NCBI GenBank assembly: GCA_021836865.1
Contig: JAKBHH010000017.1
Coordinates: forward strand, 1-50,489
Origin: Acidobacteriota bacterium
Lineage (GTDB): Bacteria; Acidobacteriota; Terriglobia; Terriglobales; Acidobacteriaceae
Length of the DNA stretch: 50,489 nucleotides
Reading direction: 5' to 3'
In this document: one piece after another, positions 14,213 through 38,096 of the stretch
Position numbering within the stretch: the first letter of the stretch is position 1
Layout of the letters: every line of letters starts with the position of its first letter
Made by a program: the position numbers and the translations under genes
Notes under the pieces: generated by a model
Seen by the model: only the letters and a program-made list of their open reading frames with translations
The model's database searches: none
What the model was told of the DNA's origin: nothing

Positions 14213-14409
14213 CGGAAATTCTCCAGTGTTCCAGGCGGTGCTTGCCGGCTTGCCATATTGGTTTAGACACCAACGGAAGCCATCGGTTGCCCCGCGCAAC
14301 GTTCTTCAATCACATCCATCGTCTGGCCGCCAGCATAACCCGCTTTCTCCGTTCTGACCCTACAACAAATGGGCCAGTCCGGACGGATTTACCGGGGACC
14401 GCCGCCGGT

Positions 14410-14808: not shown

Positions 14809-14926
14809 AGTGTTTCCTCATGACTCTCTTCGCGTTCTGCGCCCTGGGGGCACAGTGACACAGGATCGGGCCGGACCCGGCTCGCCGATGGATCAGGCAG
14901 CCGCGAGCGGCAATTCATAACAAGCC

Positions 14927-15346: not shown

Positions 15347-15478
15347 CCGGTTTCCTTTTCCGCTGGAGCCCACTTGCCCCAGCCGCTGCCGCCGGCAAAT
15401 ACCATAGCGGCCATTCCCTGTCAGCAGGTCTTCCTCCAGGTCCTCGGTCTTTCGTCCCTCGGTCCCCGCTCCTGCTGC

Positions 15479-16171
15479 CTACTCTTCCGCCGAGCCGTTT
15501 CGCTCACGGCGGTTGAACTCATTCATCGCGGCTGCCGGACCGGCTTCAATGATGCGCCGCGTGGCCGTAGCCGCTCGGTCCAACACTTCGTCCAGTACCG
15601 CCAACTCCCCCTTGCGCATGGGCGACAGCAGGTAATCCCTGCCGGGCCGTCTGCCGGAGGCTCTCGCCTCTGGAGGAAGATCCGGCCCCACGCCGATCCG
15701 CAGGCGCAGCCATTCCTGGCTGTTGAGGGCGCCGGTTACGCTGCGGGCTCCGTTGTGGCCGGCAGGCGAACCGCGCTCCCTGATCTTGAGGCTGCCGAAC
15801 GTCAAGTCCAACTCGTCGTAAATCACAAGCAGGTCTTTGGCCGGGTCAGCCTCAAACTCCCGCACCAGAGCGGCCACTGCGGCTCCGCTCAGGTTCATAA
15901 AGGTCTCCGGCTTGGCCAGAACCACCTCGCGCCCTGCAATACGGCAGGTAGCGGTTGTGGCCCGGCAGCGCCGGTTCTGCACCACAACGCCCTCTTGCTG
16001 GGCGATGCGGTCAATCGCCATGAACCCCGCGTTATGCGGCGTCCACAGGTATTCGAGGCCCGGATTGCCCAGCCCCACCACCAAAAAGGGGCCGGGGCGT
16101 CCGCTTGAGCCGGAGCCCCCAGCAAGTGATTTTGGCTCGCTGGGGTGAACGGACTCGCTTGATTCCGCCAA
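15479..16171 (-). CDS. pth: Peptidyl-tRNA hydrolase
   Basis: 230 residues if the TTG at 16171 is used; it lies 3 bases after the rplY stop, which supports coupled translation. The enzyme core begins near residue 29 (FLVVGLGNPGLEYLWTPHNAGFMAID), where the His of TPHNAGF is catalytic. KPETFMNLSG, VIYDELDLTFGSLKIRERGSPAGHNG and RLRIGVG follow. Pth releases amino acids or peptides from stalled peptidyl-tRNA in the cytosol. The Ser/Gly-rich first 28 residues are not part of the usual fold, so a later GTG/TTG start near PFLVVG is possible. Confidence 0.94.
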   Translation of the reverse strand: MAESSESVHPSEPKSLAGGSGSSGRPGPFLVVGLGNPGLEYLWTPHNAGFMAIDRIAQQEGVVVQNRRCRATTATCRIAGREVVLAKPETFMNLSGAAVAALVREFEADPAKDLLVIYDELDLTFGSLKIRERGSPAGHNGARSVTGALNSQEWLRLRIGVGPDLPPEARASGRRPGRDYLLSPMRKGELAVLDEVLDRAATATRRIIEAGPAAAMNEFNRRERNGSAEE

Positions 16172-16174
16172 GGC

Positions 16175-16858
16175 TTACTTCTTCGCCTCGGGCTTCTTGG
16201 CTGCAGCGTCTGCGTCGGTCTTGCCCTTCTTGGCCACTTCCGGCTCTGCCGTGGTGGGAGCAGCAGCGGCCTCAGCCTCCGGCGTAGCAGCCACCTCTTC
16301 GCGAATCGAGACCACGTGGGCCACGGTCGCGTCCTCGGCGTTCAGATACTCGATCTTGTCGGAGTGCGGCAGGTCGCTCACGCGCACCACCCCATGCAGG
16401 TTCAAACCGCTGACATCCACGTCGATGTGGCTGGGAATGTCGGCAGGCAGGCACTCGATTTCGACCTCGCGCAGCACCTGATCCAGGATGCCGCCGGCGG
16501 TCTTGACGCCCACCGGAATACCCAGCAGCTTGACGCGCACGCTCACACGCAGGGTCTTGTCCAGCGCAATCCGCTTCAGGTCAATGTGGATGAGCTGATC
16601 CTTGATCGGCTCGCGCTGCCAATCCACAATCATGGCCTTGGCCGAGGGATTGCCCGCAACCTCGACATCGAAAATTGTGTTGTGGCCGGTTTCGGAGAAA
16701 AGTATCCGGGAAATCTGCTTGGGGTCGACCTCAACGGCCACCGGCTCATGACCGGCGCCATACAGTACGGCAGGAATCTTGCCCGCGACACGTACACGGC
16801 GCGCGGCATTCTTGTTGAACTTGCCCACGCGGGGCTTGGCTACGACAACTTCAGGCAT
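16175..16858 (-). CDS. rplY: 50S ribosomal protein bL25 (Ctc form)
   Basis: 227 residues, the long two-domain Ctc type rather than the short E. coli L25. The N-terminal RNA-binding domain includes GKFNKNAARRVRVAGKIPAVLYG, VDPKQISRIL and LIHIDLKRI. The C-terminal TL5-like domain has LREVEIECLPADIPSHIDVDVSGL. A Lys/Ala-rich tail ends the protein. bL25 binds 5S rRNA. It is coupled to pth, as is common in bacteria, and lies 100 bases after prs. Confidence 0.96.
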   Translation of the reverse strand: MPEVVVAKPRVGKFNKNAARRVRVAGKIPAVLYGAGHEPVAVEVDPKQISRILFSETGHNTIFDVEVAGNPSAKAMIVDWQREPIKDQLIHIDLKRIALDKTLRVSVRVKLLGIPVGVKTAGGILDQVLREVEIECLPADIPSHIDVDVSGLNLHGVVRVSDLPHSDKIEYLNAEDATVAHVVSIREEVAATPEAEAAAAPTTAEPEVAKKGKTDADAAAKKPEAKK

Positions 16859-16958
16859 TCCGTCTCTCGTTTCTTGTTTTCGGGCACGGATTCAGTCCGC
16901 TCCCTTTGTTGGGGCCAGTCGTCCGATACCATTCCTGCGGACAGCCGGCCAGTGACAG

Positions 16959-18053
16959 CTACGAAAACAGCGAACTTACGCTGGTCTCCATGTGAATGCT
17001 CTCAATGGCCGCGCCCAGCAGGCCGGCAATGGAGAGCACCTTGATCTTGGACAGCTTCTGCGCCGCATCGCGTAAAGGAATCGTGTTGGTGACCACCACC
17101 TCTTCCAGACGCGAGTTGGCAATGCGGTCAATGGCCGGGCCGGAAAGCACCGCATGGCTGGCGCAGGCATACACCGCTGCCGCGCCGTTGGCATACAGCG
17201 CGTCCACGGTCTTCACCAGCGTGCCCGCGGTGTCAATAATGTCGTCGATGATAAGGCAGTTCTGGCCTTCCACATCACCCACCACGTTCATCACTTCGGC
17301 TACGTTGATGTCGGTGCGGCGTTTGTCCACAATGGCCAGCGGCGCGCCTACCTTTTGTGCGAAGAAGCGCGCCCGCTCCACGCCGCCCGCGTCGGGAGAA
17401 ACCACGGTCAGGTTGGGCAGGTTCAACTCGCGGAAGTAGCTCACCAGCACCGGGCTGGCAAAAAGATGGTCCACGGGAATGTTGAAGAAACCCTGAATCT
17501 GCGCCGCGTGCAGGTCCACAAAGAGGGCGCGATTGGCCCCGGCGGTCGTGACCAGGTCGGCGATGAGCTTGGCACTGATGGCGACGCGGGGACGGTCCTT
17601 GCGATCCTGCCGGGCGTATCCGTAATAGGGCACCACCACGGTGATCCTTGCCGCCGAGGCGCGCTTGAGCGCGTCAATCATCACCAGCAACTCCACCAGG
17701 TGCTGATCGACCGGGTAGCAGGTGGGCTGGACGACGAAGACATCGACGCCGCGCACATTCTCCAGCAACTGGAAGTAGACCTCGCCGTCGGCAAAGCGCT
17801 GCAGCTTGGCCTCGCCCACCTTGACGCCGATGTGGGTGGCAATCTCGTCGGCCAGCGGCCGGTTGGCCGTGCCCGAAAAGAGCTTGAATCGCTTGTCCTC
17901 GGTAAGGCTGCGGGCCCGCTTGCGCTCGGTTGCCGGCTTGGCATCCTTCGCCTTCGAGGCCTCCGGCGAGATGGCCTTGCCTGCGTCCTTCTGCGCGTCG
18001 CTTGCGTCCTGCGGCTTGTCTTCCAACGTGATCGTCACTGTTCCCACTTCCAT
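16959..18053 (-). CDS. prs: Ribose-phosphate pyrophosphokinase (PRPP synthetase)
   Basis: 364 residues from the ATG at 18053, which has GGAGGTG eight bases upstream; the TTG at 18071 overlaps that site and is unlikely. The enzyme core begins near residue 55 (FKLFSGTANRPLADEIA). It has FADGEVYFQL, VVQPTCYPVDQHLVELL, PYYGYARQDRKDRPRVAISAKL and the PRPP loop NCLIIDDIIDTAGTL. It makes 5-phosphoribosyl diphosphate from ribose-5-phosphate and ATP for nucleotide, His and Trp synthesis. An unusual Lys/Ala-rich extension of about 50 residues precedes the core. Downstream of tRNA-Gln and upstream of rplY on the minus strand. Confidence 0.96.
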   Translation of the reverse strand: MEVGTVTITLEDKPQDASDAQKDAGKAISPEASKAKDAKPATERKRARSLTEDKRFKLFSGTANRPLADEIATHIGVKVGEAKLQRFADGEVYFQLLENVRGVDVFVVQPTCYPVDQHLVELLVMIDALKRASAARITVVVPYYGYARQDRKDRPRVAISAKLIADLVTTAGANRALFVDLHAAQIQGFFNIPVDHLFASPVLVSYFRELNLPNLTVVSPDAGGVERARFFAQKVGAPLAIVDKRRTDINVAEVMNVVGDVEGQNCLIIDDIIDTAGTLVKTVDALYANGAAAVYACASHAVLSGPAIDRIANSRLEEVVVTNTIPLRDAAQKLSKIKVLSIAGLLGAAIESIHMETSVSSLFS

Positions 18054-18117
18054 CGTCTTGCGCACCTCCAAGCTGGTTGGCTTTGGCTGTGTTCCCAGGG
18101 GTCTTCCCCTTAAACTC

Positions 18118-18191
18118 TGGCTGGGCGACTAGGATTCGAACCTAGACAAGTGCCTCCAAAGGGCACTGTCCTACCATTAGACGATCGCCCA
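18118..18191 (-). tRNA. tRNA-Gln (anticodon TTG), CCA encoded
   Basis: On the minus strand a full cloverleaf can be drawn: acceptor TGGGCGA pairs with TCGCCCA; the anticodon stem GTGCC/GGCAC encloses CTTTGGA, giving anticodon TTG; the T arm is CTAGG-TTCGAAT-CCTAG. The discriminator is G and CCA is encoded. It sits between ispE and prs. Confidence 0.96.
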
Positions 18192-18269
18192 ACTTGGCGC
18201 ATTTCCAGCCTGTGCTGAAAACCACCCTCGGCAGCCGCACGTGAGTCTCTCGCGCACTCCAGTGGACTG

Positions 18270-19334
18270 TCAACCTGCCTGCGGAAGGAGCATTTCGCTC
18301 CAATAGCCGGACCGGGGCAGGGTGCGCGTCAACAGGCTTTCTACGCCCGCATCGGCGAGCCGCTTCCGGGCCGCTTCCGCATCTCCGCGGGTCAGGTACA
18401 ACCCGAAGAGCGCCGATCCGGACCCGGACAGCGAAGCATGGAGGGCTGCCTCCGGCGTGCCGGAAGCCGCAAGAAGGCGCTTGATCTCTGCAAGGGAAGG
18501 ATGCTGGCGGAAGACGACACGTTCAAAGTCGTTCCGGATCCAGCTACTGATCCCGGTGCGGACAAGCGCGGACTCTTGAGGTCCGGCCAGGTCCTTTCCC
18601 ACGGAAAGGACACCGGAGGAGCCTGCTCCCTGCCGACCTCCGGGGATTGCTCCCGCAAAGGCGCTGGCGTAGGCGCGGCTCAACTCATTCAGTTTAGCGG
18701 TACTGGCCTCCGCGGTCAAACCCTCTGCGACGCAAAGGGCGTCCCAGTCGCGAAAGGCCTGCGGCGTAGAGACGCCGACGGCAGGAGTGGCGACCACGCA
18801 CCAGACCGGCTCGATTTCCGGCAACGGGAAAACATCCTGACCGCGGTCCAGACCGAGCACGGTGCCGCCGATCAAAAACAAGGGCACATCGGAGCCCACC
18901 TGGGCCGCGATCGCAAGGCGCTTTGCCGCCCAGCCCGCTTGCCCATCTCCCTTAATTCCTTCAGTTTGCAGCACACCTAGCTCGGCTTCCAGCCCCACCA
19001 GCGCCGCCGCGGCATTGGCCGAGCCCGCGCCCAGCCCGCCCTGCACCGGCAGGCGCTTTTCAATCTGGATCTCGACCTCAGCGGTGAGGCTAAGTGCCTG
19101 CAATGCAAGCTGCACCATCTTCCATGCCGTATTGCGGCCATCGGTCGGAACCCGCCGGTCATTTGAGGCCAGCCGAATCGCCGTCGACCCTGCTCGAAGC
19201 GCAGTAACCGTCACCAGGTCATAGAGTTCCAGCGTTTGGTAGACAGTGGCCAGGGCGTGGAATCCATCGGAGCGCGGCGCTCCGATGCCGAGCCCCAGGT
19301 TGATCTTGGCGTGCGAGCGAACCGTGGCAGACAT
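18270..19334 (-). CDS. ispE: 4-diphosphocytidyl-2-C-methyl-D-erythritol kinase
   Basis: 354 residues from the ATG at 19334; upstream in-frame codons lack similarity. VRSHAKINLGLGI at the start is the GHMP-kinase IspE opening, with RSDGFHALATVYQTLELYD next. LPVQGGLGAGSANAAAAL near residue 90-107 is the ATP-binding loop, and LSGSGSALFGLY near 318 is the third GHMP motif. The enzyme phosphorylates CDP-methylerythritol in the MEP isoprenoid pathway. Compared with typical 290-residue IspE, it carries an insert of about 50 residues (roughly 215-275). It diverges from the aspartyl-protease gene. Confidence 0.94.
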   Translation of the reverse strand: MSATVRSHAKINLGLGIGAPRSDGFHALATVYQTLELYDLVTVTALRAGSTAIRLASNDRRVPTDGRNTAWKMVQLALQALSLTAEVEIQIEKRLPVQGGLGAGSANAAAALVGLEAELGVLQTEGIKGDGQAGWAAKRLAIAAQVGSDVPLFLIGGTVLGLDRGQDVFPLPEIEPVWCVVATPAVGVSTPQAFRDWDALCVAEGLTAEASTAKLNELSRAYASAFAGAIPGGRQGAGSSGVLSVGKDLAGPQESALVRTGISSWIRNDFERVVFRQHPSLAEIKRLLAASGTPEAALHASLSGSGSALFGLYLTRGDAEAARKRLADAGVESLLTRTLPRSGYWSEMLLPQAG

Positions 19335-19500
19335 ATCGGACCATTGTAGAGCCGCGCTTGTGACTTCCTCCGGTTGCGCCGTCGGTCGCCGGCGTTTTTG
19401 CCGGAACAATGTGGCCTTCCCGGACGTACAATCCCTGTGTACGCCCCAGGGCACTTCCCCGTGCTGGGCCGGTCTGGCCCTGTGGGCAAGGGGGGACTCG

Positions 19501-20656: not shown

Positions 20657-20697
20657 ATGTAGACAACCTACACCCAGTGCGAGTAGAGTGTCTACAT
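20657..20697 (+). promoter_or_regulatory. PadR-type operator with nested dyads
   Basis: ATGTAGACA (20657-20665) and TGTCTACAT (20689-20697) form a perfect 9-bp inverted repeat 23 bases apart. Each half carries its own small dyad: TGTAG-N5-CTACA (20658-20672) and GTAGA-N3-TCTAC (20683-20695). Sites with ATGT/ACAT halves are typical for PadR regulators. The array ends 2 bases before the padR ATG, so it must overlap the promoter or leader and fits autorepression. Confidence 0.65.
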
Positions 20698-20699
20698 CC

Positions 20700-21065
20700 A
20701 TGCGCGAGAAGAACCACTATCGAAATCGGATCGAGCTGCTACAAGGCACACTAGACATGCTTATCCTTCAGACCCTGCAATGGGGCCCGCAGCACGGGTA
20801 TGGCATTGTCCAGGCATTGCGTTTACGTTCCGGAGAAGTTCTTCAGGTGGAAACGGGATCGCTCTACCCCGCGCTGCATCGGCTGGAGCGGCAAGGCTGG
20901 GTGCGATCGGAGTGGAAGCAGTCCGAGAGCAAGCAAACGGCGCGCTACTACCGGATCACGGCCGCCGGGAAGAAGCGGCTCGCCGTCGATCTGAGTAAAT
21001 GGGAGCGGATCGTGGATGCAATTGGTTCAATCATGCGCGGCAAGCCGGAGGAAAGTGAGACATGA
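20700..21065 (+). CDS. PadR-family transcriptional regulator
   Basis: 121 residues from the ATG at 20700; a GTG at 20688 lies inside the operator. The winged-helix domain (about 12-85) has LLQGTLDMLILQTLQWGPQHGYGIVQAL, TGSLYPALHRLERQGWV and RYYRITAAGKKRL, all PadR hallmarks. No Shine-Dalgarno is visible and the operator abuts the start, so the mRNA may be leaderless. The stop overlaps the ATG of the large permease gene (ATGA), meaning that both are translated from one message. The pair is a very common acidobacterial module, and the regulator probably controls the permease. Confidence 0.93.
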   Translation: MREKNHYRNRIELLQGTLDMLILQTLQWGPQHGYGIVQALRLRSGEVLQVETGSLYPALHRLERQGWVRSEWKQSESKQTARYYRITAAGKKRLAVDLSKWERIVDAIGSIMRGKPEESET

Positions 21066-23725
21066 GCCGGTTCTCGATTTTCGGCTTCGGACGGCGAAGG
21101 CGTGAGTTACAGGAAGAAATCGATGGTCATGTGCGGATGGCGATCGCAGAACGTGTGGACCGGGGCGAGACGGAGGAGGTGGCGCGTCAAGCCGTGATTC
21201 GTGAGTTCGGCAATGTGCTCTTGGTGCAGGATGTGACGCGCGAGACATGGGGATGGACCAGGCTGGAACAACTTGTTCAGGATTTTCACTACGCACTACG
21301 ACAAATCCGTCGCTCGCCGATGTTCGCGGCGACGGTCGTGGGCACGCTAGGGCTTGGGATTGCGGCTCCGGCAGCGATGTTCACAGTCGTAGACCATGTG
21401 CTTTTGCAACCCACGCCCTATCGAGATGCCGGGCAGCTCGTAGCAATTCAGGAGACGAACGGCTCGTCGGCTTATACGTGGCCTTCTCCTTGGTTAGACA
21501 TTGAAAGTTGGCAGGCCCAGAGTCGGTCGTTTAGCGAAATCGCCTTCTCAGCGAAATCAACCGGGCGCAATTTCATCACAGAACAGTCAGCGGCGGCAGA
21601 GGTCGACGGAGAGAGGATTAGTCCAAATCTTTTCAGCGTACTCGGTATACGACCTGTTTTGGGCCGTGGCTTCATTTCTGAAGCGCCGAGTCTCATTGCG
21701 GGCAAGAACGCCGGCATGATCGTGCTGAGCGACACCGTGTGGAGAGAGGTATTTGGCGGCGATCCCGGAATTCTCGGCAAGGTGGTGAGAGTTAATAGTG
21801 ATTCCTACACCGTATCTGGGGTAATGCCACCCGGGTTCCGGTATCCGGAAGGCTCCGGCGTTACGCCCCAAGTCTGGTTTCCCATTCAGTTGGGGAGTGA
21901 TGACGAGAGTCGTCACTTCAAAGCAATGCAATATACGGTGCTTGGGCGTCTGACGCACAATGCGACGATCGAGAGCGCAAGTGCGGAAATGGCACTGGTT
22001 CAAAAGCGCGTGGTGGCAGAATATACCGATCCCAATCTGCGCAAAGACCACAGCGTCGTCAGGATCGTACGCTACGCAGATCTGCTGGTGACCCACGACG
22101 TCCAGACCGCCTTGCTCGCTTTGCTGGGGGCGTCCGGGGTTCTATGGCTGATCGCCGTCGTGAACGCAACGAATCTGCTGCTCGCGCGCAGCACCGTGCG
22201 CCAGAGGGAGATTGCGATGCGCGGTGCGCTGGGCGCCAGCCGCTGGCGCGTGATGCAGCAGATGATTGTCGAGGGCATGACTCTCAGCGCGATGGCAGCA
22301 ACTCTGGGTATTGGACTGGCGCTCGGGTCCGTCCGACTTTTGGCTATCGAACTGAGCCATACGCTTCCCGTTCCAGCACCGGCGACTCCGGACGGATGGA
22401 TTGTGCTGGTCCTGGTCATGCTGACCGTGAGTTCTGCGCTGTTGTCAACGGCATGGCCTGCATTCCTGGCTGCGCGCGCTCCGATTGAAGTGGCGCTGAA
22501 GCGGGGCGGAGCCCAGTCAGGAACGAGCCGTGAACATCACCGTATCCGCGCTGTTCTGGTGGTGACGGAGATTGCAATGTCTATGACGCTTCTGGTGGTA
22601 TGCGGGCTACTGCTACGGAGCATCTACTCCCTGCGGCACGTGCCGCTGGGATTTCGTACCGACCACATCCTTGTGGCAAATCTCAGCATTCCTTCGTATC
22701 GCTTTGCGGGGCAGAACATGACCGAGACCCTGTACCGCCCATTGTTGGAACGCGCTCAGCGTTTACACGGCGTCGAGAGCGCGGGGCTCATCAGCGAGGT
22801 GCCGCTCGGTAAAACATTCGTGCTTCATTTGGAAATGAAATTGAGCGATTCCACTATCATCGCCTTCCTGAAAGCCGTCAGTCCGGAAACGCAGAAGGTG
22901 TTTGGCTTCAAAATGGAAGCGGGGCGATTCTTCGGGCCGGAAGACACTGCGAATTCTGAGCCGGTGGTGGTCGTGAACGAGGCATTCGCGCGTCTCTACT
23001 CCCCGGACAAGCACAATCCCGCGGCAGTACTGGGAGCGCAGCTCAGCAAAAACTCGCCGCTGCGGATCATCGGCATTCTGGATGATGAGCGGCAAAAGAC
23101 GGTTGCCGCCCCGGCCACGCCCGAGGTGGAGATTCCCATTCCGCAGCTGACGCCTGCGAGCGGCTTCTATCGTCCGATCGAGGGAATCGCGATGGATCTT
23201 GCCGTTCGAACCGATAAGCCCACGGCTGAGATGATTCCGGAACTGCGCGACGTCCTGCGCCAGGCGAGCCCGGAACTGAAGAATGCCACGATCACTACGA
23301 TGGACCAGATTGTGGAGGACTCGTATGGCAGCCAACGACTGGCTGCTCATCTGCTGGAGATCTTCGGAGGATTGGCGCTACTTCTCTCCGTAGCGGGGCT
23401 GTACGGACTGCTGGCCTACCTGGTGACGCAGCGGACGCATGAAATGGGGGTGCGGATTGCGCTGGGAGCGCTGCGCGGCAATCTGCTGTGGTTGGTGATG
23501 CGGCAGGCCGGAGCCATGCTCCTCACGGGTGTGGCCGTGGGCGCCGGTCTGGCTCTGGTTGCGGGGCGACTCGTGCGGGGGTTCCTCTACGGTGTGAACG
23601 CGCATGATGGCTGGACGCTGGCTGCCGCAGTGATGTTCCTGTTCGCCAGCGGGATGGCGGCGGCGTATCTGCCGGCGCGTCGAGCTGCAAGCGTCAATCC
23701 GATGGAAGCATTGCGGGCGGAATGA
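21062..23725 (+). CDS. Orphan MacB/FtsX-type ABC permease (acidobacterial duplicated permease, ADOP family)
   Basis: 887 residues. The N-terminal 80 residues are a cytoplasmic region with ELQEEIDGHVRMAIAERVDRG that is specific to PadR-linked permeases. Then comes the first unit: a membrane helix near 90-115, a large periplasmic MacB-type domain (to about 340), and three FtsX helices (about 345-470). A second unit follows: helix near 500-525, a second periplasmic domain, and three helices near 765-875 ending in PARRAASVNPMEALRAE. The first unit closes with the related ARAPIEVALKRGGAQS. No ATPase gene is adjacent, hence orphan. MacB relatives act in efflux or mechanotransmission; the role of this expanded family is unknown. 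Coupled to padR by a 4-base overlap. Confidence 0.92.
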   Translation: MSRFSIFGFGRRRRELQEEIDGHVRMAIAERVDRGETEEVARQAVIREFGNVLLVQDVTRETWGWTRLEQLVQDFHYALRQIRRSPMFAATVVGTLGLGIAAPAAMFTVVDHVLLQPTPYRDAGQLVAIQETNGSSAYTWPSPWLDIESWQAQSRSFSEIAFSAKSTGRNFITEQSAAAEVDGERISPNLFSVLGIRPVLGRGFISEAPSLIAGKNAGMIVLSDTVWREVFGGDPGILGKVVRVNSDSYTVSGVMPPGFRYPEGSGVTPQVWFPIQLGSDDESRHFKAMQYTVLGRLTHNATIESASAEMALVQKRVVAEYTDPNLRKDHSVVRIVRYADLLVTHDVQTALLALLGASGVLWLIAVVNATNLLLARSTVRQREIAMRGALGASRWRVMQQMIVEGMTLSAMAATLGIGLALGSVRLLAIELSHTLPVPAPATPDGWIVLVLVMLTVSSALLSTAWPAFLAARAPIEVALKRGGAQSGTSREHHRIRAVLVVTEIAMSMTLLVVCGLLLRSIYSLRHVPLGFRTDHILVANLSIPSYRFAGQNMTETLYRPLLERAQRLHGVESAGLISEVPLGKTFVLHLEMKLSDSTIIAFLKAVSPETQKVFGFKMEAGRFFGPEDTANSEPVVVVNEAFARLYSPDKHNPAAVLGAQLSKNSPLRIIGILDDERQKTVAAPATPEVEIPIPQLTPASGFYRPIEGIAMDLAVRTDKPTAEMIPELRDVLRQASPELKNATITTMDQIVEDSYGSQRLAAHLLEIFGGLALLLSVAGLYGLLAYLVTQRTHEMGVRIALGALRGNLLWLVMRQAGAMLLTGVAVGAGLALVAGRLVRGFLYGVNAHDGWTLAAAVMFLFASGMAAAYLPARRAASVNPMEALRAE

Positions 23726-30390: not shown

Positions 30391-30422
30391 GTATGCCATA
30401 CTATATTCGAAGGATCGAATAT
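30391..30422 (+). promoter_or_regulatory. Double dyad operator upstream of arsR-type gene
   Basis: GTATG-C-CATAC (30391-30401) lies one base from ATATTCGA-AGGA-TCGAATAT (30403-30422), both perfect. ArsR-type repressors bind AT-rich dyads of this second kind near their own promoter. The larger dyad ends 22 bases before the ATG at 30445. Confidence 0.65.
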
Positions 30423-30444
30423 TCAAATGGATCGGAAGGTGGCC

Positions 30445-30789
30445 ATGCCAGACTCATTGCGCCGTTTTAAGGCCGACATCTTCCAGGCGCTTGCGCATCC
30501 TACGCGGATTGCAATTATCGAGCTGCTGGCGAACGGAGAACTCTCTGCCGGCGAGCTCATCGCAAAGCTAGGAATGGAGCAGGCAAATGTCTCTCAACAT
30601 TTGGCAGTGCTCCGGACAAAGCAACTGGTCGTCAATCGCAAGGCAGGGAATCAGGTTTTCTATGCCGTTCGAGACCCCATCATCATTAAGGTTCTTGCTC
30701 TCATGCGGCGCTATTTCCAAAAGAATCTCAAGGGGGCATTGGAGCTGCTGAATGAGATAGATAACATGCCCGCTGATTCTGGCCGATGA
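30445..30789 (+). CDS. ArsR-family transcriptional regulator
   Basis: 114 residues from the ATG at 30445, chosen for the GGAAGG six bases upstream; an ATG at 30427 is next to the operator and has no such site. The winged helix has FQALAHPTRIAIIELLANGELSAGELIAKLGMEQANVSQHLAVLRTKQLVVNRKAGNQVFYAV written across residues about 12-75. The metal-binding ELCVCDL motif of arsenic and cadmium sensors is absent and no Cys is present, so it is not a classic metal sensor. It lies 94 bases before the hydrogenase-4-like genes in the same direction and probably controls them; its signal is unknown. Confidence 0.9.
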   Translation: MPDSLRRFKADIFQALAHPTRIAIIELLANGELSAGELIAKLGMEQANVSQHLAVLRTKQLVVNRKAGNQVFYAVRDPIIIKVLALMRRYFQKNLKGALELLNEIDNMPADSGR

Positions 30790-30883
30790 CAGCTTGCCCT
30801 GCGCTGAGATCGGTACCTGTTCATCTCCAACGGGTAAGCGAATCTATCTTTACTGGGCGATTATTTGAGGTGTTGGTTACAGA

Positions 30884-32959
30884 GTGCAATTGCAGTTTGG
30901 AGGCGACAGAGACTTGGTTTTGAGCGCTTACCATTGGATTTCCGCGCTGGCTGAAGCTCTGGCGGGCCATGAACTCCGCTTCATGCTCTGCATTGTCGCC
31001 GCGTGGATGATTCTAGGCCTTGCGGGCTTCCTGCGGCCCCACAGCATACGATTCGTTGCGCATCTGCTTTTTCCCGCAGGAGGAGTTCTGTGTCTTGGCG
31101 TCGCTGTCCTGGCGGGCTTGTACCTGGGCTCAGGGCGGGGGCCGCAGACTGCGATTCTTCCGCTCGGCCTCCCCGATCTGCCTTTCCACATTCGGTTGGA
31201 TGTGTTGTCAGGGTTCTTTCTCTTGCTGCTGGGTGTGGCCGGCGCCGGCATTTCAACGTTCGCGGCGGGCTACTTCCGCTCGGGCGAGGGCACTGCGCCG
31301 GCATTGCTTGGTCTGCATTATCACCTGTTCCTCGCCAGCATGGCTTTGGTGATGCTTGCCGACGATGCGTACATGTTTATGGTTGCGTGGGAAACGATGG
31401 CCCTCACGTCCTATTTTCTTGTCACCTCCCATCATCGAATTCCCGAAATCCGCCGGGCCGGATTCTTGTACCTGCTCATGGCTCATGTTGGCGCTGTCTG
31501 CATCCTGCTCTGCTTTGGCGTTTTGCAGGGCGGAAGTTGGCAATTCACGTTCGATGCCATGCGCGGCGCTCCTCTTGCTCCGGTCTGGGCAACCACCGCG
31601 TTTCTGCTCGCCCTGTTGGGTTTTGGAGCCAAAGCCGGTCTTGTTCCCATGCATGTGTGGCTCCCGGAAGCGCACCCGGCAGCGCCATCGCCGGTCTCGG
31701 CAATGATGAGCGGAATCATGCTCAAAACCGCAATCTATGGATTGTTGCGGGTCAGCTTCGATCTGCTCAATGTCCGCTTCTGGCAGTGGGGCGCACTTTT
31801 GCTCGGGCTCGGGCTCTTCTCCGCATTGTTCGGTGCAATCTTCGCCGCCGTGCAGACCGACATGAAACGGTTGCTGGCATATTCGTCGATTGAAAATGTT
31901 GGACTGATTTTTACCGGTATCGGCCTTGCGGTCCTCTTTCAGACAAACAACATGCCGCTGTTTGCGGCGCTTGCGCTCACAGCCGCTTTGGTCCATTCCC
32001 TCAACCACTCGCTTTTCAAGAGCCTGCTTTTTCTTACGACCGGTTCAGTGCTCCACGCCACAAGACAGAGGAGTCTTGGAAAACTTGGCGGCCTGATCCG
32101 CCCCATGCCCTGGGTTGCAAGTCTGGCGCTGGTCGGCACACTGTCCATCGCCGGCCTGCCGCCGTTCAACGGCTTTATCTCGGAGTGGTTGTTGCTGCAG
32201 TCGTTTCTTTTCACCCCGCAGCTTCCCCACGCATTTCTCAACATGCTCATCCCGCTCGGAGCCGCGGCTCTTGCGCTTACAGCGGCTCTCGCAGCCTACG
32301 TGATGGTGAAGTTTTACGGTGTGATTTTTCTGGGTCAGCCGCGGGAAGGCTCACTGGAAAGCGCCCACGATGCTAATTGGCTGGAGCGCCTGGGTCTCGG
32401 CTGGCTCGCGTTTGGGTGCATCCTGATCGGCGCCGTGCCGCAACTCGCACTGAATGCGGTGGCACCGGTCACGGGCAAATTGCTGGGCGACTCTGTCAGG
32501 CCCAGTTCCACTGTCTGGTGGATAGCTCCGATTGCACAGCAACAGGCTTCCTATAGCGGACTGATTCTGCTTGCCGGAATTGTTGCGGTTGTGGCTGCAA
32601 CCTTCGTGTTCGTTCGCCTGCTGGCCCACGGGCGCATGCGGCGCACCGCTCCCTGGGACTGCGGTTACCCGTGGCAGAACTCACGCATGCAGGATACGGC
32701 GGAGGGTTTTGGGCAACCAATCCGTCACATGTTCGGAGCGTTCTTTCGCATGGAGCGTCATTTGCCGTCAGCGGCCGACACTGCCCCGCGGTACAGGGTC
32801 TACATTGAAGATCGGCTTTGGCGGGGAATCTATCTGCCCATTGCCCGGGGCGTTCAAGGCCTCGCAGATGCAATCGGAGTCCTGCAACGTGGACGACTTG
32901 CGGTCTACCTGCTCTACAGCTTTCTTACCCTGCTTGGCTTACTGGTGTTCGTCTTATGA
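30884..32959 (+). CDS. hyfB: HyfB-like antiporter-type subunit of a group 4 hydrogenase-related complex
   Basis: 691 residues from the GTG at 30884 (TGAGG ten bases upstream). It belongs to the NuoL/MrpA antiporter family: about 16 membrane helices, with LGFGAKAGLVPMHVWLPEAHPAAPSPVSAMMSG near 245-277 and MKRLLAYSSIENVGLI near 325-340, holding the conserved Lys residues of the ion channel. HSLNHSLFKSLLFLTTGSVLHATRQR follows near 370. The C-terminal part (PWDCGYPWQNSRMQDTAEGFGQPI) is typical of HyfB/HycC. The symbol names the homologue. It probably pumps protons or sodium in the inner membrane. First structural gene of the six-gene cluster; its stop overlaps the next start. Confidence 0.9.
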   Translation: MQLQFGGDRDLVLSAYHWISALAEALAGHELRFMLCIVAAWMILGLAGFLRPHSIRFVAHLLFPAGGVLCLGVAVLAGLYLGSGRGPQTAILPLGLPDLPFHIRLDVLSGFFLLLLGVAGAGISTFAAGYFRSGEGTAPALLGLHYHLFLASMALVMLADDAYMFMVAWETMALTSYFLVTSHHRIPEIRRAGFLYLLMAHVGAVCILLCFGVLQGGSWQFTFDAMRGAPLAPVWATTAFLLALLGFGAKAGLVPMHVWLPEAHPAAPSPVSAMMSGIMLKTAIYGLLRVSFDLLNVRFWQWGALLLGLGLFSALFGAIFAAVQTDMKRLLAYSSIENVGLIFTGIGLAVLFQTNNMPLFAALALTAALVHSLNHSLFKSLLFLTTGSVLHATRQRSLGKLGGLIRPMPWVASLALVGTLSIAGLPPFNGFISEWLLLQSFLFTPQLPHAFLNMLIPLGAAALALTAALAAYVMVKFYGVIFLGQPREGSLESAHDANWLERLGLGWLAFGCILIGAVPQLALNAVAPVTGKLLGDSVRPSSTVWWIAPIAQQQASYSGLILLAGIVAVVAATFVFVRLLAHGRMRRTAPWDCGYPWQNSRMQDTAEGFGQPIRHMFGAFFRMERHLPSAADTAPRYRVYIEDRLWRGIYLPIARGVQGLADAIGVLQRGRLAVYLLYSFLTLLGLLVFVL

Positions 32960-33909
32960 GAGCGATCAGCTTCGTTCGGCAGTTCCTCGAAGTCGTGCTG
33001 GCGATTGCGATCGCACCGTTGTTCACGGGATGGATTGCGCAATGCCGCGCCTGGCTGCAGAATCGTTCAGCGCCGTCGTTGCTGCAGCCGTATCGGATGC
33101 TGCGCAAGCTCTTCTTCAAAGATGTTGTGCTGGCGCAGAATGCCTCAGCGCTCTTTCGGGCAACTCCGTATGTGCTGTTTGGAACAATGGTGCTTGCGGC
33201 GGCGATTATTCCTTCGCTGGTCACCGATCTTCCCCTGGCGCGGGTGGCTGACTCGATTGCGCTCGTTGGACTTTTTGCAACAGCGCGTGTCTTCCTGTCG
33301 CTCGCGGCCATGGATATCGGCACGGCCTTCGGAACCCTCGGCGCGCGCCGGGAGATGATGATTGGCTTCCTTGCGGAACCCGCGCTCCTGATGGTGCTGT
33401 TCAACGCTTTCATGCTCTTTGGGAGCACATCGCTACCCAGTCTGGTAGACGGCTACCGCGCGCATCAGTCAGTTGTCGATCCAAGCGTAATCTTCGCGGC
33501 GGTCGCTTTCGTCATGGTGCTTTTGGCTGAAAACGCTCGAATCCCAATCGACAATCCATCCACTCATCTTGAGTTGACAATGATTCACGAAGCAATGCTG
33601 CTGGAGTATTCAGCACGTCACCTTGCGCTGGTCGAGTGGGCATCGAGCCTCAAGCTTTTCAATTATGCCTGTATCGGATTCGCATTGTTTCTTCCCTGGG
33701 GAATCGCCACACACGGCGCGGATGGCGGCTGGCCGTTGCTGGTTGCTATTGCCGCGTTGCTTGGAAAACTTGTAATCGCCGGCGCGGCGCTCGCGCTGAT
33801 TGAATCGTTGTCGGCCAAGCTGCGAATCTTTCGCGCTCCCGAGTATCTCGCGATGGCTTTTCTGCTCGCAGTGCTCGGCTTGCTCGTTCATCTTTTGCTG
33901 GGGGCATAA
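32956..33909 (+). CDS. hyfC: HyfC/NuoH-like membrane anchor subunit
   Basis: 317 residues from the ATG at 32956, overlapping the hyfB-like stop (ATGA). It is the NuoH family: eight or so helices. PLFTGWIAQCRAWLQNRSAPSLLQPYRMLRKLFFKD near 22-56 is the HycD/HyfC form of the NuoH amphipathic start. ENARIPIDNPSTHLELTMIHEAMLLEYSARHLALVEWAS near 190-230 holds the acidic loop that couples the peripheral arm to the ion path. The subunit anchors the HyfG/HyfI-like module to the membrane. Confidence 0.92.
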   Translation: MRAISFVRQFLEVVLAIAIAPLFTGWIAQCRAWLQNRSAPSLLQPYRMLRKLFFKDVVLAQNASALFRATPYVLFGTMVLAAAIIPSLVTDLPLARVADSIALVGLFATARVFLSLAAMDIGTAFGTLGARREMMIGFLAEPALLMVLFNAFMLFGSTSLPSLVDGYRAHQSVVDPSVIFAAVAFVMVLLAENARIPIDNPSTHLELTMIHEAMLLEYSARHLALVEWASSLKLFNYACIGFALFLPWGIATHGADGGWPLLVAIAALLGKLVIAGAALALIESLSAKLRIFRAPEYLAMAFLLAVLGLLVHLLLGA

Positions 33910-33914
33910 TCAAG

Positions 33915-34580
33915 ATGCACCATTCTGAACTCATCGCCCAGCTGTTGAAGGTCATTGCCGCAGGACTGCTGCTCATCTCGTTTGCCATGCTCGCGAGTCG
34001 CCGTACGCAGCAATTGATCACGCTGTTCGCCTGGCAGGGCGCCATGCTCTTTGTCTCAACCTGCCTTGTGGCCTATAGCTCAGGCCTGACCGAGATGTAT
34101 TACTCCGCAGGACTCACTCTGTTGCTGAAGGTCATTGCCCTGCCGTGGATTCTTCATCGCTTGATCCACCGGCTCGGGGCGCAATGGGACAGCGAGCAGC
34201 TAGTGAATGTGCCTACGACCATGATGGCAGGATTAGCGCTGGTGATCTTTGCCTTTGGATTAGCTCAACCGATAACTTCGATGGCCACAACCATCACGCG
34301 CCACACGCTGGGCATTGCTCTGGCTGTGATCCTGCTTGCCTTCCTGATGATGATTACCCGTCGCAAGGCGGTGACGCAGGTAATTGGCTTTCTTGCCATG
34401 GAGAATGGCCTGTTTTTCGCCGCCACCAGCGCAACGTATGGCATGCCGATGGTCATCGAGTTAGGGATTGCGCTCGATCTGCTCGTCGGTGTCTTTATCC
34501 TGGGTATCTTTTTCTTCCAGATTCGGGAGCAATTCGACAGTCTCGACCTGAGTAACCTGGAATCGCTCAAGGAGGACTGA
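33915..34580 (+). CDS. hyfE: HyfE-like membrane subunit
   Basis: 221 residues, starting five bases after the hyfC-like stop. Strongly hydrophobic with about seven helices, including LKVIAAGLLLISFAMLASRR, YYSAGLTLLLKVIALPWILHRLI and MPMVIELGIALDLLVGVFILGIFFFQI. HyfE is a NuoK-related subunit; MENGLFFAATSATYG and ELGIALDLLVGVF keep the acidic residues of that family. It is followed directly by the HyfF-like gene with no gap. Confidence 0.9.
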   Translation: MHHSELIAQLLKVIAAGLLLISFAMLASRRTQQLITLFAWQGAMLFVSTCLVAYSSGLTEMYYSAGLTLLLKVIALPWILHRLIHRLGAQWDSEQLVNVPTTMMAGLALVIFAFGLAQPITSMATTITRHTLGIALAVILLAFLMMITRRKAVTQVIGFLAMENGLFFAATSATYGMPMVIELGIALDLLVGVFILGIFFFQIREQFDSLDLSNLESLKED

Positions 34581-36032
34581 ATGGAAATACTCATGGTTCT
34601 AGGCTTGCCCCTTCTGGGAGCCGCTCTGCTGGCAGTCTTCGGCGCCCGCCGCTTTGCAGCCGAACTCAATGCAGGCATGAGCCTGGCCACTCTGATCGCC
34701 GCGTCCTTCCTTGTCCTGCGCGTCATCCGGCATGGACCCTTGCTCGCCGGCCATGAGCAATTCTTTGTCGATCCCTTCAATGTGTTCCTGGTCGCGCTGA
34801 CGGCCTTCGTCGGCTTCACCACCGCGCTCTTCTCTCGCCCCTACATGCGGATCGAGGAGCATCATGGGCGTTTGAACCCGGGGCGACTTCGCCTCTATCA
34901 CAGCATGTACCAGCTCTTCATGGCCGCGATGCTGCTCGCTCTTCTCACCAACAACATGGGCCTGCTCTGGGTGGCAATGGAAGCAGCTACGCTTTCGACA
35001 GTGCTGCTGGTCTCGCTCTATCGCACGCGGGCCAGCCTGGAAGCGGCCTGGAAGTATTTCATCCTGTGCGGCGTCGGTATTGCGCAGGCGCTGTTCGGCA
35101 CGATTCTGCTGTATTTTGCCGCGGAGAAGGCTCTAGGGCGTCAAGGCATGACTGCGCTCTTGTGGACCCATCTCAATGCTGTAAAGGGCCAACTCGAGCC
35201 ACGGGTTCTGGGGCTCGCGTTTGTCTTTCTTCTTGTTGGATACGGAACAAAGGTCGGGCTTGCGCCCCTGCACAACTGGCTTCCGGACGCACATGCCGAA
35301 GGCCCCACGCCTGTTTCCGCTGTACTTTCCGGACTCCTGCTGAATGTGGCGCTCTATGCGGTCATCCGTTGCAAAGTGCTTGTCGAAGGCTCAATCGGTC
35401 ATATTCTTCCAGGCCGCATGTTGATGACCTTTGGGCTCCTTTCTGCTGTGCTCGGCGCCTTTTTTATCTGGAGACAGCGCGACATCAAGCGCCTCTTCGG
35501 CTATTCCTCAATTGAACATATGGGTATCATCACATTCGCTTTCGGTCTCGGCGGCCCGGTGGCCAATTTCGCCGCTCTGCTGCACATGACCGTTCATTCG
35601 CTGACAAAGTCGTCTATCTTCTTCACTGCGGGCCACGCGTCACAGACCGCCGGGACACAGCAAATGGACGGCATTCGCGGCCTGGTAGGCATCAGCCCAA
35701 CCATTGGATGGGGACTTATGCTGGGTTCTCTTTCCATTCTTGGCATGCCGCCATTCGGCGTCTTCGCAAGCGAGTTTCTCATTCTGACAACGGCCATGCG
35801 AGAGCATCCGTGGACAACGCCATTCCTGCTGATTGCACTCGGAGTCGCTTTCGCCGGAATCTTCAGCCGCGTTCAACCGATGGTCTTTGGCGAGAGCGAT
35901 GCGCCGCCCCTGCCGCACTCTCCCGCCCTGCTGCCGGTCTTCGTTCATCTGGGAATGGTGCTGCTGCTGGGAGTCTACATGCCCGCGGCACTCGCTGAGT
36001 GGTATCGCGCGGCAGCGCGGTTGATAGGGTGA
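34581..36032 (+). CDS. hyfF: HyfF-like second antiporter-type subunit
   Basis: 483 residues, starting one base after the hyfE-like stop. Another member of the NuoL/M/N antiporter family: GYGTKVGLAPLHNWLPDAHAEGPTPVSAVLSG near 215-246 and IKRLFGYSSIEHMGIITFAFG near 300-320, with HMTVHSLTKSSIFFTAGHASQ. It is shorter than the HyfB-like protein and lacks its C-terminal extension. Together they give two channel-type subunits. HyfD, a third antiporter-type subunit of E. coli hydrogenase-4, is missing here. Confidence 0.9.
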   Translation: MEILMVLGLPLLGAALLAVFGARRFAAELNAGMSLATLIAASFLVLRVIRHGPLLAGHEQFFVDPFNVFLVALTAFVGFTTALFSRPYMRIEEHHGRLNPGRLRLYHSMYQLFMAAMLLALLTNNMGLLWVAMEAATLSTVLLVSLYRTRASLEAAWKYFILCGVGIAQALFGTILLYFAAEKALGRQGMTALLWTHLNAVKGQLEPRVLGLAFVFLLVGYGTKVGLAPLHNWLPDAHAEGPTPVSAVLSGLLLNVALYAVIRCKVLVEGSIGHILPGRMLMTFGLLSAVLGAFFIWRQRDIKRLFGYSSIEHMGIITFAFGLGGPVANFAALLHMTVHSLTKSSIFFTAGHASQTAGTQQMDGIRGLVGISPTIGWGLMLGSLSILGMPPFGVFASEFLILTTAMREHPWTTPFLLIALGVAFAGIFSRVQPMVFGESDAPPLPHSPALLPVFVHLGMVLLLGVYMPAALAEWYRAAARLIG

Positions 36033-36037
36033 TACGT

Positions 36038-37582
36038 ATGATGCATGAACCTGAAAGGTCCATTGGGAACTTACTGTCGAATCTGCCATGCAAGTCCAAG
36101 GTCGTCGGTGCTCTGGACTGGCACAGGGAGGCCGGGAATGTGCGCGCCGCCGGAGGGCAACTGTTGACTCTTTGGGGCGCGGACGATCGCGATCGCGACG
36201 GCAGTTTTCGCATCTTTGCCGCCTACCTCCTCGATGACGGGATCGAGGTCCTGGAACATGCGATGGGAAATGGTATAACTCCCACTTACCCCAGCCTTGC
36301 GGAACTGTTTCCCTGTGCCTTGCATATGGAGCGCGCGGTCTACGATCTGCTGGGGATAGCAAGCATGGAGCCCGATCATCGCGGCTGGTTGCGTCATGGG
36401 GGTTGGCCGCGGTCTGAGTTTCCTCTACGAAGGGATTTCGACGCAAGCCGGCAGTTTGCCATCGACTCGCAGCCATATCCGTTTGTCCAGGTAGAAGGCG
36501 ACGGCGTCCACGAGATCGCCGTTGGGCCGGTTCACGCCGGCACCATCGAGCCTGGGCACTTTCGATTCTCAGTGGTCGGTGAAAAGGTTCTTCGCCTTGA
36601 AGAGCGCCTTGGCTATACGCATAAAGGTGTCTCGAAGCGATTTGAGCAGATGCAGCAAGCGGAAGGGCACCGCCTTGCAGCGCGTTTATCCGGCGATTCT
36701 GCGGTCGCTTTTTCATGGGCCTATTGTGCTGCGCTGGAGGCGATCACCCATACCGGCTGTCCTCCGCGAGCCGCCAACCTGCGCGCGCTTGCACTGGAGC
36801 ACGAGCGACTCGCGAATCATCTGGGTGACCTGGGAGCGCTGGGCAATGACGCCGGATTTGCCTTTGGACTCACCCAATTCTCGCGCATGAAAGAGGACCT
36901 TCTTAGGTTGAATGTAGCCGCCTTTGGAGCACGCTATCTGCTTGACTTCGTCCAGCCGGGTGGAGTGGCAACGGAATTGCCCGAAGATACGCCTCGGCTA
37001 CTTCTCGATCATTACCTGGTGCTGGAAGAGAGGGTTTCCGGTCTGCGCGTCATCTACGATAACCATGCAGGCCTCCAGGATCGCTTTCGCGAAGCGGGAA
37101 CTCTGAGCCGGGAATCGGCGGTAAAACTCGGCGCAGTCGGCCTGGCCGGGCGCGCCTCCGGCGTTCCTCTCGACCTGCGCGTGCATCATCCATGGCCGCC
37201 CTACGACCGGATGAAGCCTAAGCTCGTAATGCAATCCACGGGCGATGTCGCGGCGCGCGTCTACCAGAGGTTTGACGAGGTATTCGAATCGCTTCGGCTC
37301 TGCCGCATGATCCTTGAGAACTCCGTTGCAGGGCCGATACAGGCAGATTGCCCGCTGGCTGAACCGGATCGCCTCGGACTCGGCCTGATCGAATCCTGGC
37401 GCGGTCCGGTGATCATCGCACTGGAAAGCGGCCCCGGCGGGACCATCCGCCGTTGCCATGCACACGATTCTTCATGGCAGAACTGGCCTCTGATCGAATA
37501 CGCAATCCTCAGCAACATCGTGCCTGATTTTCCATTGATCAACAAATCCTTCAACCTGTCCTACAGCGGACATGACGGATGA
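36038..37582 (+). CDS. hyfG: HyfG-like (NuoCD fusion) large subunit lacking all Ni ligands
   Basis: 514 residues from the ATG at 36038 with AGGGTG upstream; a GTG at 36029 overlapping the hyfF stop is an alternative. Residues 1-150 are NuoC-like (FPCALHMERAVYDLLGI near 91-107). Residues 160-514 are the large-subunit domain, with VGPVHAGTIEPGHFRF near 162-177 and LEERLGYTHKGVSKRFE near 187-203. Where a hydrogenase has RxCGxC, this protein has R216-LSGDS-221, with both cysteines replaced by Ser. At the C-terminus, where DPCxxC is expected, it has SFNLSYSGHDG. No CxxC occurs anywhere. It therefore cannot bind a NiFe centre and is not a hydrogenase. It fits the Ehr complexes described from genome surveys; substrate unknown. 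Confidence 0.9.
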   Translation: MMHEPERSIGNLLSNLPCKSKVVGALDWHREAGNVRAAGGQLLTLWGADDRDRDGSFRIFAAYLLDDGIEVLEHAMGNGITPTYPSLAELFPCALHMERAVYDLLGIASMEPDHRGWLRHGGWPRSEFPLRRDFDASRQFAIDSQPYPFVQVEGDGVHEIAVGPVHAGTIEPGHFRFSVVGEKVLRLEERLGYTHKGVSKRFEQMQQAEGHRLAARLSGDSAVAFSWAYCAALEAITHTGCPPRAANLRALALEHERLANHLGDLGALGNDAGFAFGLTQFSRMKEDLLRLNVAAFGARYLLDFVQPGGVATELPEDTPRLLLDHYLVLEERVSGLRVIYDNHAGLQDRFREAGTLSRESAVKLGAVGLAGRASGVPLDLRVHHPWPPYDRMKPKLVMQSTGDVAARVYQRFDEVFESLRLCRMILENSVAGPIQADCPLAEPDRLGLGLIESWRGPVIIALESGPGGTIRRCHAHDSSWQNWPLIEYAILSNIVPDFPLINKSFNLSYSGHDG

Positions 37583-38096
37583 GGCAAGCATGATTAACAC
37601 GCTATCGCGCATGATACGCACGGGCATATTGACTGAGACCTTTCCGGCTCCGGCGTCCGCTTCGCCCGCCATGGATAGGCTGCAGAAGGATATGAGAAAT
37701 ATCCTGGGCCGTGCTCTCTGCATTCGCCATGTCGATGCCGGCTCCTGCAATGGATGCGAACTCGAGATTCATGCACTCAATAATCCCTACTACAACATCG
37801 AAGGCATCGGCATGAAATTCGTAGCGAGCCCCAGACATGCCGATCTTCTGCTCGTCACGGGTCCAGTCACCGCGAACATGGAAGAGGCATTGAAACGTAC
37901 TTTGGATGCCATGCCGGACCCCAAACTCGTTGTCGCGGTGGGTGATTGCGGAGCTTGCGGCGGAGTGTTTGGGAAGAGCTACGCCAGCCGTGGTGCGGTT
38001 GCGAATGTCATTCCCGTGCAGCGAACGGTGGCCGGCTGTCCGCCCAGCCCCGTGGCAATCCTGGAGGCCATTCGGTCCGCAGTCATCGAAGCTTGA
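37572..38096 (+). CDS. hyfI: HyfI-like (NuoB-like) iron-sulfur subunit
   Basis: 174 residues; the ATG at 37572 overlaps the end of the large subunit, and an in-frame ATG at 37590 with GAGG upstream may be the real start. The four cysteines of the proximal 4Fe-4S cluster are all present: Cys59 and Cys62 in SCNGCELEIH, Cys126 in GDCGACGG, and Cys156 in GCPPSP. The acidic residue after the CxxC, typical of NuoB and Hyf/Ech small subunits, is kept. So the electron path is intact although the NiFe site of its partner is gone. Last gene of the cluster; no HyfH-type ferredoxin subunit or maturation genes follow. Confidence 0.92.
   Translation: MTDEASMINTLSRMIRTGILTETFPAPASASPAMDRLQKDMRNILGRALCIRHVDAGSCNGCELEIHALNNPYYNIEGIGMKFVASPRHADLLLVTGPVTANMEEALKRTLDAMPDPKLVVAVGDCGACGGVFGKSYASRGAVANVIPVQRTVAGCPPSPVAILEAIRSAVIEA

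Follow-up and report, generated by a model that had tools for sequence, protein, structure and literature searches.

The window analysed here, 50,489 nucleotides in length, is contig JAKBHH010000017.1 of an Acidobacteriota bacterium (contig C132 within a 3.98 Mb draft genome), and the named relatives closest to this genome are an Acidobacteriaceae metagenome-assembled genome (MAG; 72%) and a Granulicella MAG (62%). At positions 30427-38096, seven genes on the same strand encode an ArsR-type regulator followed by homologues of HyfB, HyfC, HyfE, HyfF, HyfG, and HyfI. They probably specify a complex I-type ion-translocating membrane complex akin to NiFe hydrogenases like those of group 4f and descended from one of them. 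NiFe-free complexes of this kind, termed Ehr (energy-converting or Ech hydrogenase-related), have been described in many bacteria, and the window contains a further example. A preliminary description of this DNA had recognized a six-gene complex at 30884-38096; its genes are as described there, but HyfC starts at 32956, and the unit also comprises the ArsR gene and a candidate operator. The features are the following:

30403-30422, no strand: palindromic operator candidate ATATTCGA-N4-TCGAATAT, directly 5' of the ArsR gene
30427-30789, forward: ArsR/SmtB-type repressor, cysteine-free (HTH_5 47.3 bits; NF033788 91.5 bits)
30884-32959, forward: HyfB-like antiporter subunit, 691 amino acids (NF005086, hydrogenase 4 subunit B, 862 bits against a cut-off of 667)
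32956-33909, forward: HyfC/NuoH-like membrane anchor, 317 amino acids, with its start within an ATGA overlap (PF00146 108 bits)
33915-34580, forward: HyfE-like membrane subunit, 221 amino acids (NF008556 86.9 bits, under the cut-off of 136; no Pfam match)
34581-36032, forward: HyfF-like antiporter subunit, 483 amino acids (NF005045, hydrogenase 4 subunit F, 853 bits against a cut-off of 543)
36038-37582, forward: HyfG-like large subunit, 514 amino acids, a fusion of NuoC and NuoD type free of Ni ligands (PF00329, Complex1_30kDa, and PF00346, Complex1_49kDa)
36683-36700, forward: RLSGDS, residues 216-221 of the large subunit, at the RxCGxC position
37547-37570, forward: SFNLSYSG, residues 504-511 of the large subunit, at the DPCxxC position, followed by three residues and the C-terminus
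37572-38096, forward: HyfI-like small subunit, 174 amino acids, with four [4Fe-4S] cysteines (PF01058 102.6 bits)
37590-37649, forward: N-terminal tail MINTLSRMIRTGILTETFPA of the small subunit, read as a remnant of the HyfH ferredoxin domain

The HyfB/HyfC and HyfG/HyfI gene pairs overlap. A survey of relatives covered 80 named loci (L numbers) in addition to the window, and the order B-C-E-F-G-I was found in them wherever the contig permits reading. Queries with E. coli HyfA, HyfD, HyfH, HypA-D, and HycI gave no separate match in the window, as had been noted before for HyfD and HyfH. The earlier remark that hyp genes are missing holds for the window but not for the genome, which encodes HypD on contig C113. 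The genome further encodes two NiFe large subunits whose ligands are intact, on C124 (RVCGVC/DPCLAC) and C89 (RICGIC/DPCLSC), and the missing ligands of HyfG are therefore not explained by loss of maturation.

The large subunit and its former nickel site

The cysteines of the HyfG homologue lie at positions 18, 93, 230, 241, 422, 438, and 473 only, so that the protein contains no CxxC motif. In agreement with the preliminary description, all four Ni cysteines are gone, the ligand positions being occupied by S218, S221, S508, and G511: RLSGDS aligns to RVCGIC of E. coli HycE, and SFNLSYSG aligns to SLDPCYSC. The best sequence match of HyfG in the PDB is HycE (7z0s_E, E 1.1e-52, residues 80-511). 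HycE is also the nearest fold of the HyfG model among the chains compared (Z 47.5, root mean square deviation 2.0 over 504 residues), with a fold alignment that stops at HycE residue 537, and NuoD folds come second (Z 43-45 in the rows shown). Two structure models were made, one from a 16-row alignment, in which the predicted local distance difference test score (pLDDT) at the site is below 50, and one from an 87-row alignment, with an average of 92.

The substitutions are shared by the relatives. A sample of the window's clade, thinned at 66% identity to 43 rows, contains a cysteine at position 218 in six rows, at 221 in one, and at 508 or 511 in none, and no row of this sample has both cysteines of either ligand pair. 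The six loci that have the first ligand cysteine but not its partner are L023, L037, L038, L044, L064, and L078. D220, N506, Y509, and D513 are each present in all 43 rows, and the relatives, which belong to the Acidobacteriota, Proteobacteria, and Nitrospirae, have in common the replacement signature G-D-[S/T] and NKS...Y...D. Mean conservation is 0.82 in the motif regions (214-223 and 497-513), compared with 0.60 for the domain. The survey (80 named loci plus the window) yielded 83 large-subunit open reading frames (ORFs), including that of L082, whose C-terminus is unread, and Ni ligands occur in a single one of them, the upstream copy of L054. The signature of the former Ni cavity is polar in the window protein (S218, D220, S221, N506, S508, Y509, and D513). 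In a single pairwise comparison of the window with genome G211, the ratio of nonsynonymous to synonymous substitution rates (dN/dS) was 0.09 for HyfG, 0.09 for HyfI, and 0.03 for HyfF, at dS values above 1 (1.3 for HyfG). The conservation and the dN/dS of HyfG mark it as a protein in use.

The small subunit, the membrane subunits, and the regulator

The HyfI homologue retains the four cluster cysteines C59, C62, C126, and C156, as previously described. BLAST retrieved 81 small-subunit ORFs, of which 80 have the same four; the remaining one, L034, is truncated at a contig end. This retention argues for a working cluster. The small subunits differ in what precedes the HyfI part. In the Ni-intact sisters L143, L144, and L054, the small subunit opens with a HyfH-like ferredoxin domain containing one cluster motif, and one Ehr branch (L153, L154, L155, and L163) has two cluster motifs in a fused ferredoxin domain; CxxCxxC motifs number one in L156, one in L158, and two in L157. 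Ferredoxin cluster motifs are lacking in the window, in L148-L151, and in other core-less small subunits, including those of Nitrospirae and Geobacter loci. What remains is a tail, which reads MINTLSRMIRTGILTETFP in the window; the counterpart in L144 is MLRTLIQSLRDGVVTTRYP, and that in E. coli HyfH is MLKLLKTIMRAGTATVKYP. In core-bearing relatives the ferredoxin core sits between this tail and HyfI, while in the window the tail is joined straight to HyfI, and we read it as a putative remnant of the HyfH ferredoxin domain. A broad version of the tail motif matches 71 of 88 core-less small subunits and 3% of shuffled sequences, and a narrower, earlier pattern matches 12 of 88 and 0.2%, respectively. 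Mapped on the tree described below, the distribution of the ferredoxin core takes two changes over the 45 rows that were scored; the other 18 of the 63 were unscored, 16 loci were scored by hand, L152 has a masked stretch, and E. coli was entered as present although its HyfH is a separate gene. We infer a loss of the domain here, not a gain. Since the window protein keeps only the N-terminal tail of the ferredoxin, one [4Fe-4S] site is left.

The membrane subunits appear intact, as the preliminary description had stated. Their pump-typical charged residues are invariant in the relatives and mostly common to E. coli, the columns reported being those that are charged and at least 95% conserved: in HyfB, E170 and K250 (59/59) and K379 and E434 (60/60); in HyfC, D197 (62/62) and E204, E210, and E215 (63/63); in HyfE, E182 and D188 (65/65); and in HyfF, E134 (70/70), K224 (72/72), and K343 and E398 (74/74). 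Two histidines of HyfC, H202 (62/62) and H209 (63/63), are specific to the family, as E. coli HyfC, HycD, and NuoH have no histidine there, and E. coli HyfC carries E and Q at these positions. Their positions presumably place them in the loop which in complex I is turned towards the large subunit.

With up to three mismatches allowed, the perfect palindrome ATATTCGA-N4-TCGAATAT has no second match in the window, where 0.04 would be expected, and the genome contains a single exact copy and one copy with two mismatches, inside an ORF on C142. Ahead of arsR, it recurs exactly in L160, with one mismatch in L161 and L156, and partially in L162, L172, L173, and L174; none was seen ahead of arsR in L149, L150, and L151. 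ArsR identity for L160, L161, and L156 is 61-89%, and arsR adjoins the operon in L149, L150, L151, L156, L160, L161, and L162. Because a unique palindrome stands just before arsR and recurs ahead of the arsR genes of relatives, the seven-gene unit is likely self-regulated via this candidate operator. The ArsR protein, having no cysteine, is hardly a thiol sensor, and this repressor would switch the whole unit on together.

Phylogeny and comparison with known complexes

The 151 large-subunit matches gave a tree set of 140, reduced by thinning to 63 cores, and the ligand columns were removed from the tree. Excluded beforehand were the copies L003, L014, and L015, the hydrogenases L122-L124 of groups 1/3, L121, L139, and matches of short length, and L018 was later dropped as truncated. 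The window falls outside the Ni-intact rows and inside a Ni-less clade with a support of 97/93, which bears out its earlier placement in an Ehr-like family. It is thus not among the active group 4 hydrogenases in the strict sense, though its clade is adjoined by a Ni-intact clade of three (support 94/83). A second Ni-less clade ("FGLS") has a support of 99/98. It includes L125, L126, L129, L132, and L133, in which FGL replaces the DPC of DPCxxC, and it lies far from the window's clade. The Ni-intact clade stands between the two Ni-less ones in the tree, but the approximately unbiased (AU) test gave no rejection of a topology in which the latter are united (p 0.497), so that a single loss of the Ni cysteines is possible; judging the direction from the outer Ni-intact rows, these cysteines would have been lost once or twice.

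The three Ni-intact sisters (L143, L144, and the upstream copy of L054) resemble the window in visible gene order, in NKSF...Y, and in the small-subunit tail, but differ in having RxCGxC, CYxC, and, within the small subunit, a single cluster motif of the ferredoxin. Their genomes also contain Ehr, in tandem in L054 and elsewhere in G005 and G098. In L054, a betaproteobacterial contig, the Ni-intact set (1-4380; RICGVC, CYSCTDR, and a ferredoxin-fused small subunit), whose start lies outside the locus, is directly followed by a complete Ehr set (4747-12155). L047 contains two complete tandem Ehr operons (4708-12006 and 12106-19437) with differing large-subunit signatures.

Among the 63 tree rows, the nearest to the window is L037, from Rhodanobacter lindaniclasticus DSM 17932. 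The Nitrospirae MAG locus L089 belongs to the window's clade, and both it and the Geobacter MAG locus L102 have the window's signature together with a small subunit without a ferredoxin core. Transfer between phyla is probable. A contig of a MAG labelled Bordetella parapertussis (L058) also carries the operon, and the label may stem from a mistake in binning or naming.

The cited passages on Ehr describe complexes close to group 4f and without CxxC (PMC10284858), whose function is unknown and which roughly half of the Nitrospirales genomes encode (PMC12342949), and which were also found in Margulisbacteria (PMC6349859) and bacteria of the candidate phyla radiation (PMC7304191). In G. sulfurreducens, Ehr subunits were more abundant on formate than in H2 conditions (PMC7894505). 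Compared by description, the published Ehr complexes of Nitrospira and Geobacter sulfurreducens (GSU0739-45) have, like the window, hydrogenase 4-like subunits and no CxxC, and the window has the Ehr hallmarks of a proximal [4Fe-4S] site, a NuoH-like anchor, and antiporter-like subunits. The hyfBCEFGI cluster of Acidithiobacillus ferrooxidans and Nitrospira, likewise set beside the window by description, has the same six gene names, and the A. ferrooxidans large subunit was scored as a non-hydrogenase (PMC7735108, PMC5596200). According to the description of Ca. N. nitrosa, its cluster adjoins CO dehydrogenase (PMC5596200), unlike the window-type operons, beside which none was recognized.

E. 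coli formate hydrogenlyase and hydrogenase 4 have six homologous subunits and the HycE fold in common with the window, which, for its part, lacks the Ni ligands, HyfA, HyfH, a separate HyfD, and the C-terminal stretch past HycE residue 537. Of the motifs of group 4 [NiFe] hydrogenases, RxCGxC and DPCxxC are absent from the window, and the proximal CxxC...C...C of the small subunit is present. With respiratory complex I, the window shares the NuoD fold, a NuoH-like anchor, antiporter subunits, and an equivalent of D139, but it has no equivalents of H38 and Y87, no NADH arm in the operon, and a small subunit of CxxC type, whereas NuoB of complex I, as we assume, has tandem cysteines instead.

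In M. tuberculosis, rv0081 is followed by rv0082, rv0083, hycD, hycP, hycQ, and hycE, described in the cited passage as a putative NiFe hydrogenase (PMC6901956). The gene names of Rv0081-Rv0087 resemble the order ArsR-HyfI-B-C-E-F-G of L149 (3172-10718) and L150 (2788-10597). Here we take rv0081 to be of the ArsR family and rv0082 to hycE to be I, B, C, E, F, and G. Going by these names, the M. tuberculosis genes may encode an Ehr and not a hydrogenase.

The sister clade, the tandem pair, the ferredoxin series and tail, and the site signature are not described in the cited passages of the Ehr papers, which do not include Marreiros 2013, the study they cite for Ehr. These passages propose a coupling of redox chemistry to ion translocation and leave the role of Ehr open; such complexes are found in many soil and sediment bacteria. 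The ligand-bearing sister clade and the series of two, one, and no ferredoxin clusters offer a natural series on the needs of a complex I-type pump, and D220 and N506 in HyfG and H202 and H209 in HyfC are targets for mutation and structural studies.

Candidate electron route, alternatives, and gene neighbours

We lean slightly towards an Ehr complex that pumps ions by means of a redox reaction between a soluble donor and an organic acceptor, the redox drive being our inference. With a single cluster and no ferredoxin fused to it, the complex would have to receive its electrons from a soluble carrier, or would receive none. A diffusible one-electron carrier of ferredoxin or flavodoxin type could dock where the ferredoxin domain formerly was and reduce the lone HyfI cluster; the electrons might then enter the former Ni cavity, at the junction of HyfG, HyfI, and HyfC, and reduce an organic acceptor there. 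This reaction would drive H+ or Na+ through HyfC-E-F-B, or would run in reverse on an ion gradient. For the acceptor, a quinone is the leading guess, which on its own is less likely than not. In favour of the whole interpretation are the family and architecture, the gene order, the low dN/dS, the conserved charged residues together with H202 and H209 of HyfC, the site signature and D271 of HyfG, the small-subunit series with its retained cluster cysteines, the 5/22 Ehr-bearing relatives in which no HypD was seen, and the recurring gene neighbours, none of which was recognized as a redox partner.

A quinone-type cavity in place of the NiFe site had been suggested for checking in the preliminary description, and the alignment speaks against the canonical form of it. 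H38 and Y87 of T. thermophilus Nqo4 correspond to I170 and G219 in HyfG, with I at 170 in 43 of 43 rows of the clade sample and G at 219 in 42 of 43. H38 and Y87 are, as we assume, the quinone contacts of the complex I 49 kDa subunit, and since their equivalents are replaced, a canonical quinone site in HyfG is unlikely and unsupported. D271 aligns to T. thermophilus D139 and is D in 3/3 NuoD rows and 43/43 Ehr rows, and the most frequent residue of this column in Ni-intact rows is L (5/12). Judged by its residues, HyfG has no NiFe site and no quinone site of the standard kind.

Besides the replaced contacts, several points weigh against a redox pump with an organic acceptor. The polar, replaced pocket would fit a hydrophilic ligand equally well, and loop 165-172 of HyfG has a pLDDT below 50 even in the deeper model. 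There is no linked donor gene. HypD co-occurs with window-type Ehr in 9/9 genomes, compared with 32/51 of the others (p 0.046), and as window-type Ehr is found only alongside HypD, there is room for a link to Ni metabolism; for any Ehr, the figures are 17/22 and 24/38 (p 0.39). The authors of the G. sulfurreducens work consider H2 formation in the passage cited (PMC7894505), and no assay of electron transfer by Ehr appears in the cited passages of the Ehr papers.

The same pump might instead have a small hydrophilic molecule, not a quinone, as acceptor or donor in the Ni cavity. A precedent is the MBS/Mbx sulfane reductase, in which the Ni ligands are partly lost and polysulfide is reduced at the cluster. 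The polar cavity signature and the missing equivalents of H38 and Y87 are consistent with this possibility, which is nevertheless doubtful: no matching pathway gene was recognized beside the operon, and 6u8y_L (annotated as NADH dehydrogenase subunit D), which we take to be an MBS chain, is a weak sequence match of HyfG (E 2e-13). Formate dehydrogenase-like genes, counted at 550 bits or more, show no significant co-occurrence that would point to formate dehydrogenase as a donor, with 9/22 for any Ehr and 13/38 for the remaining genomes (p 0.78), 6/9 and 16/51 for window-type Ehr (p 0.06), and 5/8 and 12/28 within the genus (p 0.43). In G210, such a gene lies 2.1 kb past a large-subunit fragment and, judged by its neighbours, resembles an assimilatory nitrate reductase.

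It is unlikely, though conceivable, that both redox ends were stripped stepwise, the Ni site and then the ferredoxin clusters from two to one to none, while the pump and a new polar pocket were conserved. The complex would then be a gated or ligand-driven translocator, or would perform new chemistry in the Ni cavity, and would not be a known oxidoreductase. An ion translocator without any redox reaction, with a cluster that is structural or a sensor and antiporter subunits driven by ligand binding or an ion gradient, is less probable still. It would account for conserved membrane residues in a complex whose Ni ligands and ferredoxin clusters are gone and for which no donor gene was recognized, but not easily for the cluster cysteines kept in nearly all small subunits.

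Compared with these possibilities, a redox-driven Ehr pump remains our preferred interpretation, and two further explanations are very improbable. A hydrogenase holding its metal site in an unusual manner would fit HypD and the other NiFe hydrogenases in the genome, the presence of HypD with every window-type Ehr, and a fold nearest to HycE; however, all four ligands are replaced, no HypD was seen in 5/22 Ehr-bearing relatives (genomes 73-100% complete), and the lack of any cysteine pair in the clade sample rules out hidden ligands. A decaying or mis-sequenced hydrogenase operon, for which the patchy occurrence of the window type (8/36 genomes searched of its own genus) might speak, is ruled out by the identical signature in independent genomes of several phyla and the dN/dS of 0.09.

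Around the 80 named loci, recurring neighbours include genes for a SulP-type transporter (10), a MetG-like protein (10), a spermidine synthase-like protein (11), DUF1275 (5), and others; three neighbour clusters were named by Pfam and the rest by eye, and no redox partner was recognized. For 14 window-type loci, several of them on short contigs, the clusters common to at least three loci are, judged by their coordinates, arsR, the six genes, and frames overlapping them. The SulP-type anion transporter near the Ehr operon has a STAS domain, for example in L076 (1965-3773; PF00916 366 bits). Elsewhere in the window, a MacB/FtsX-type permease of 887 amino acids is encoded at 21062-23722, and the small ORF ahead of it (20688-21062) resembles a PadR-type regulator.

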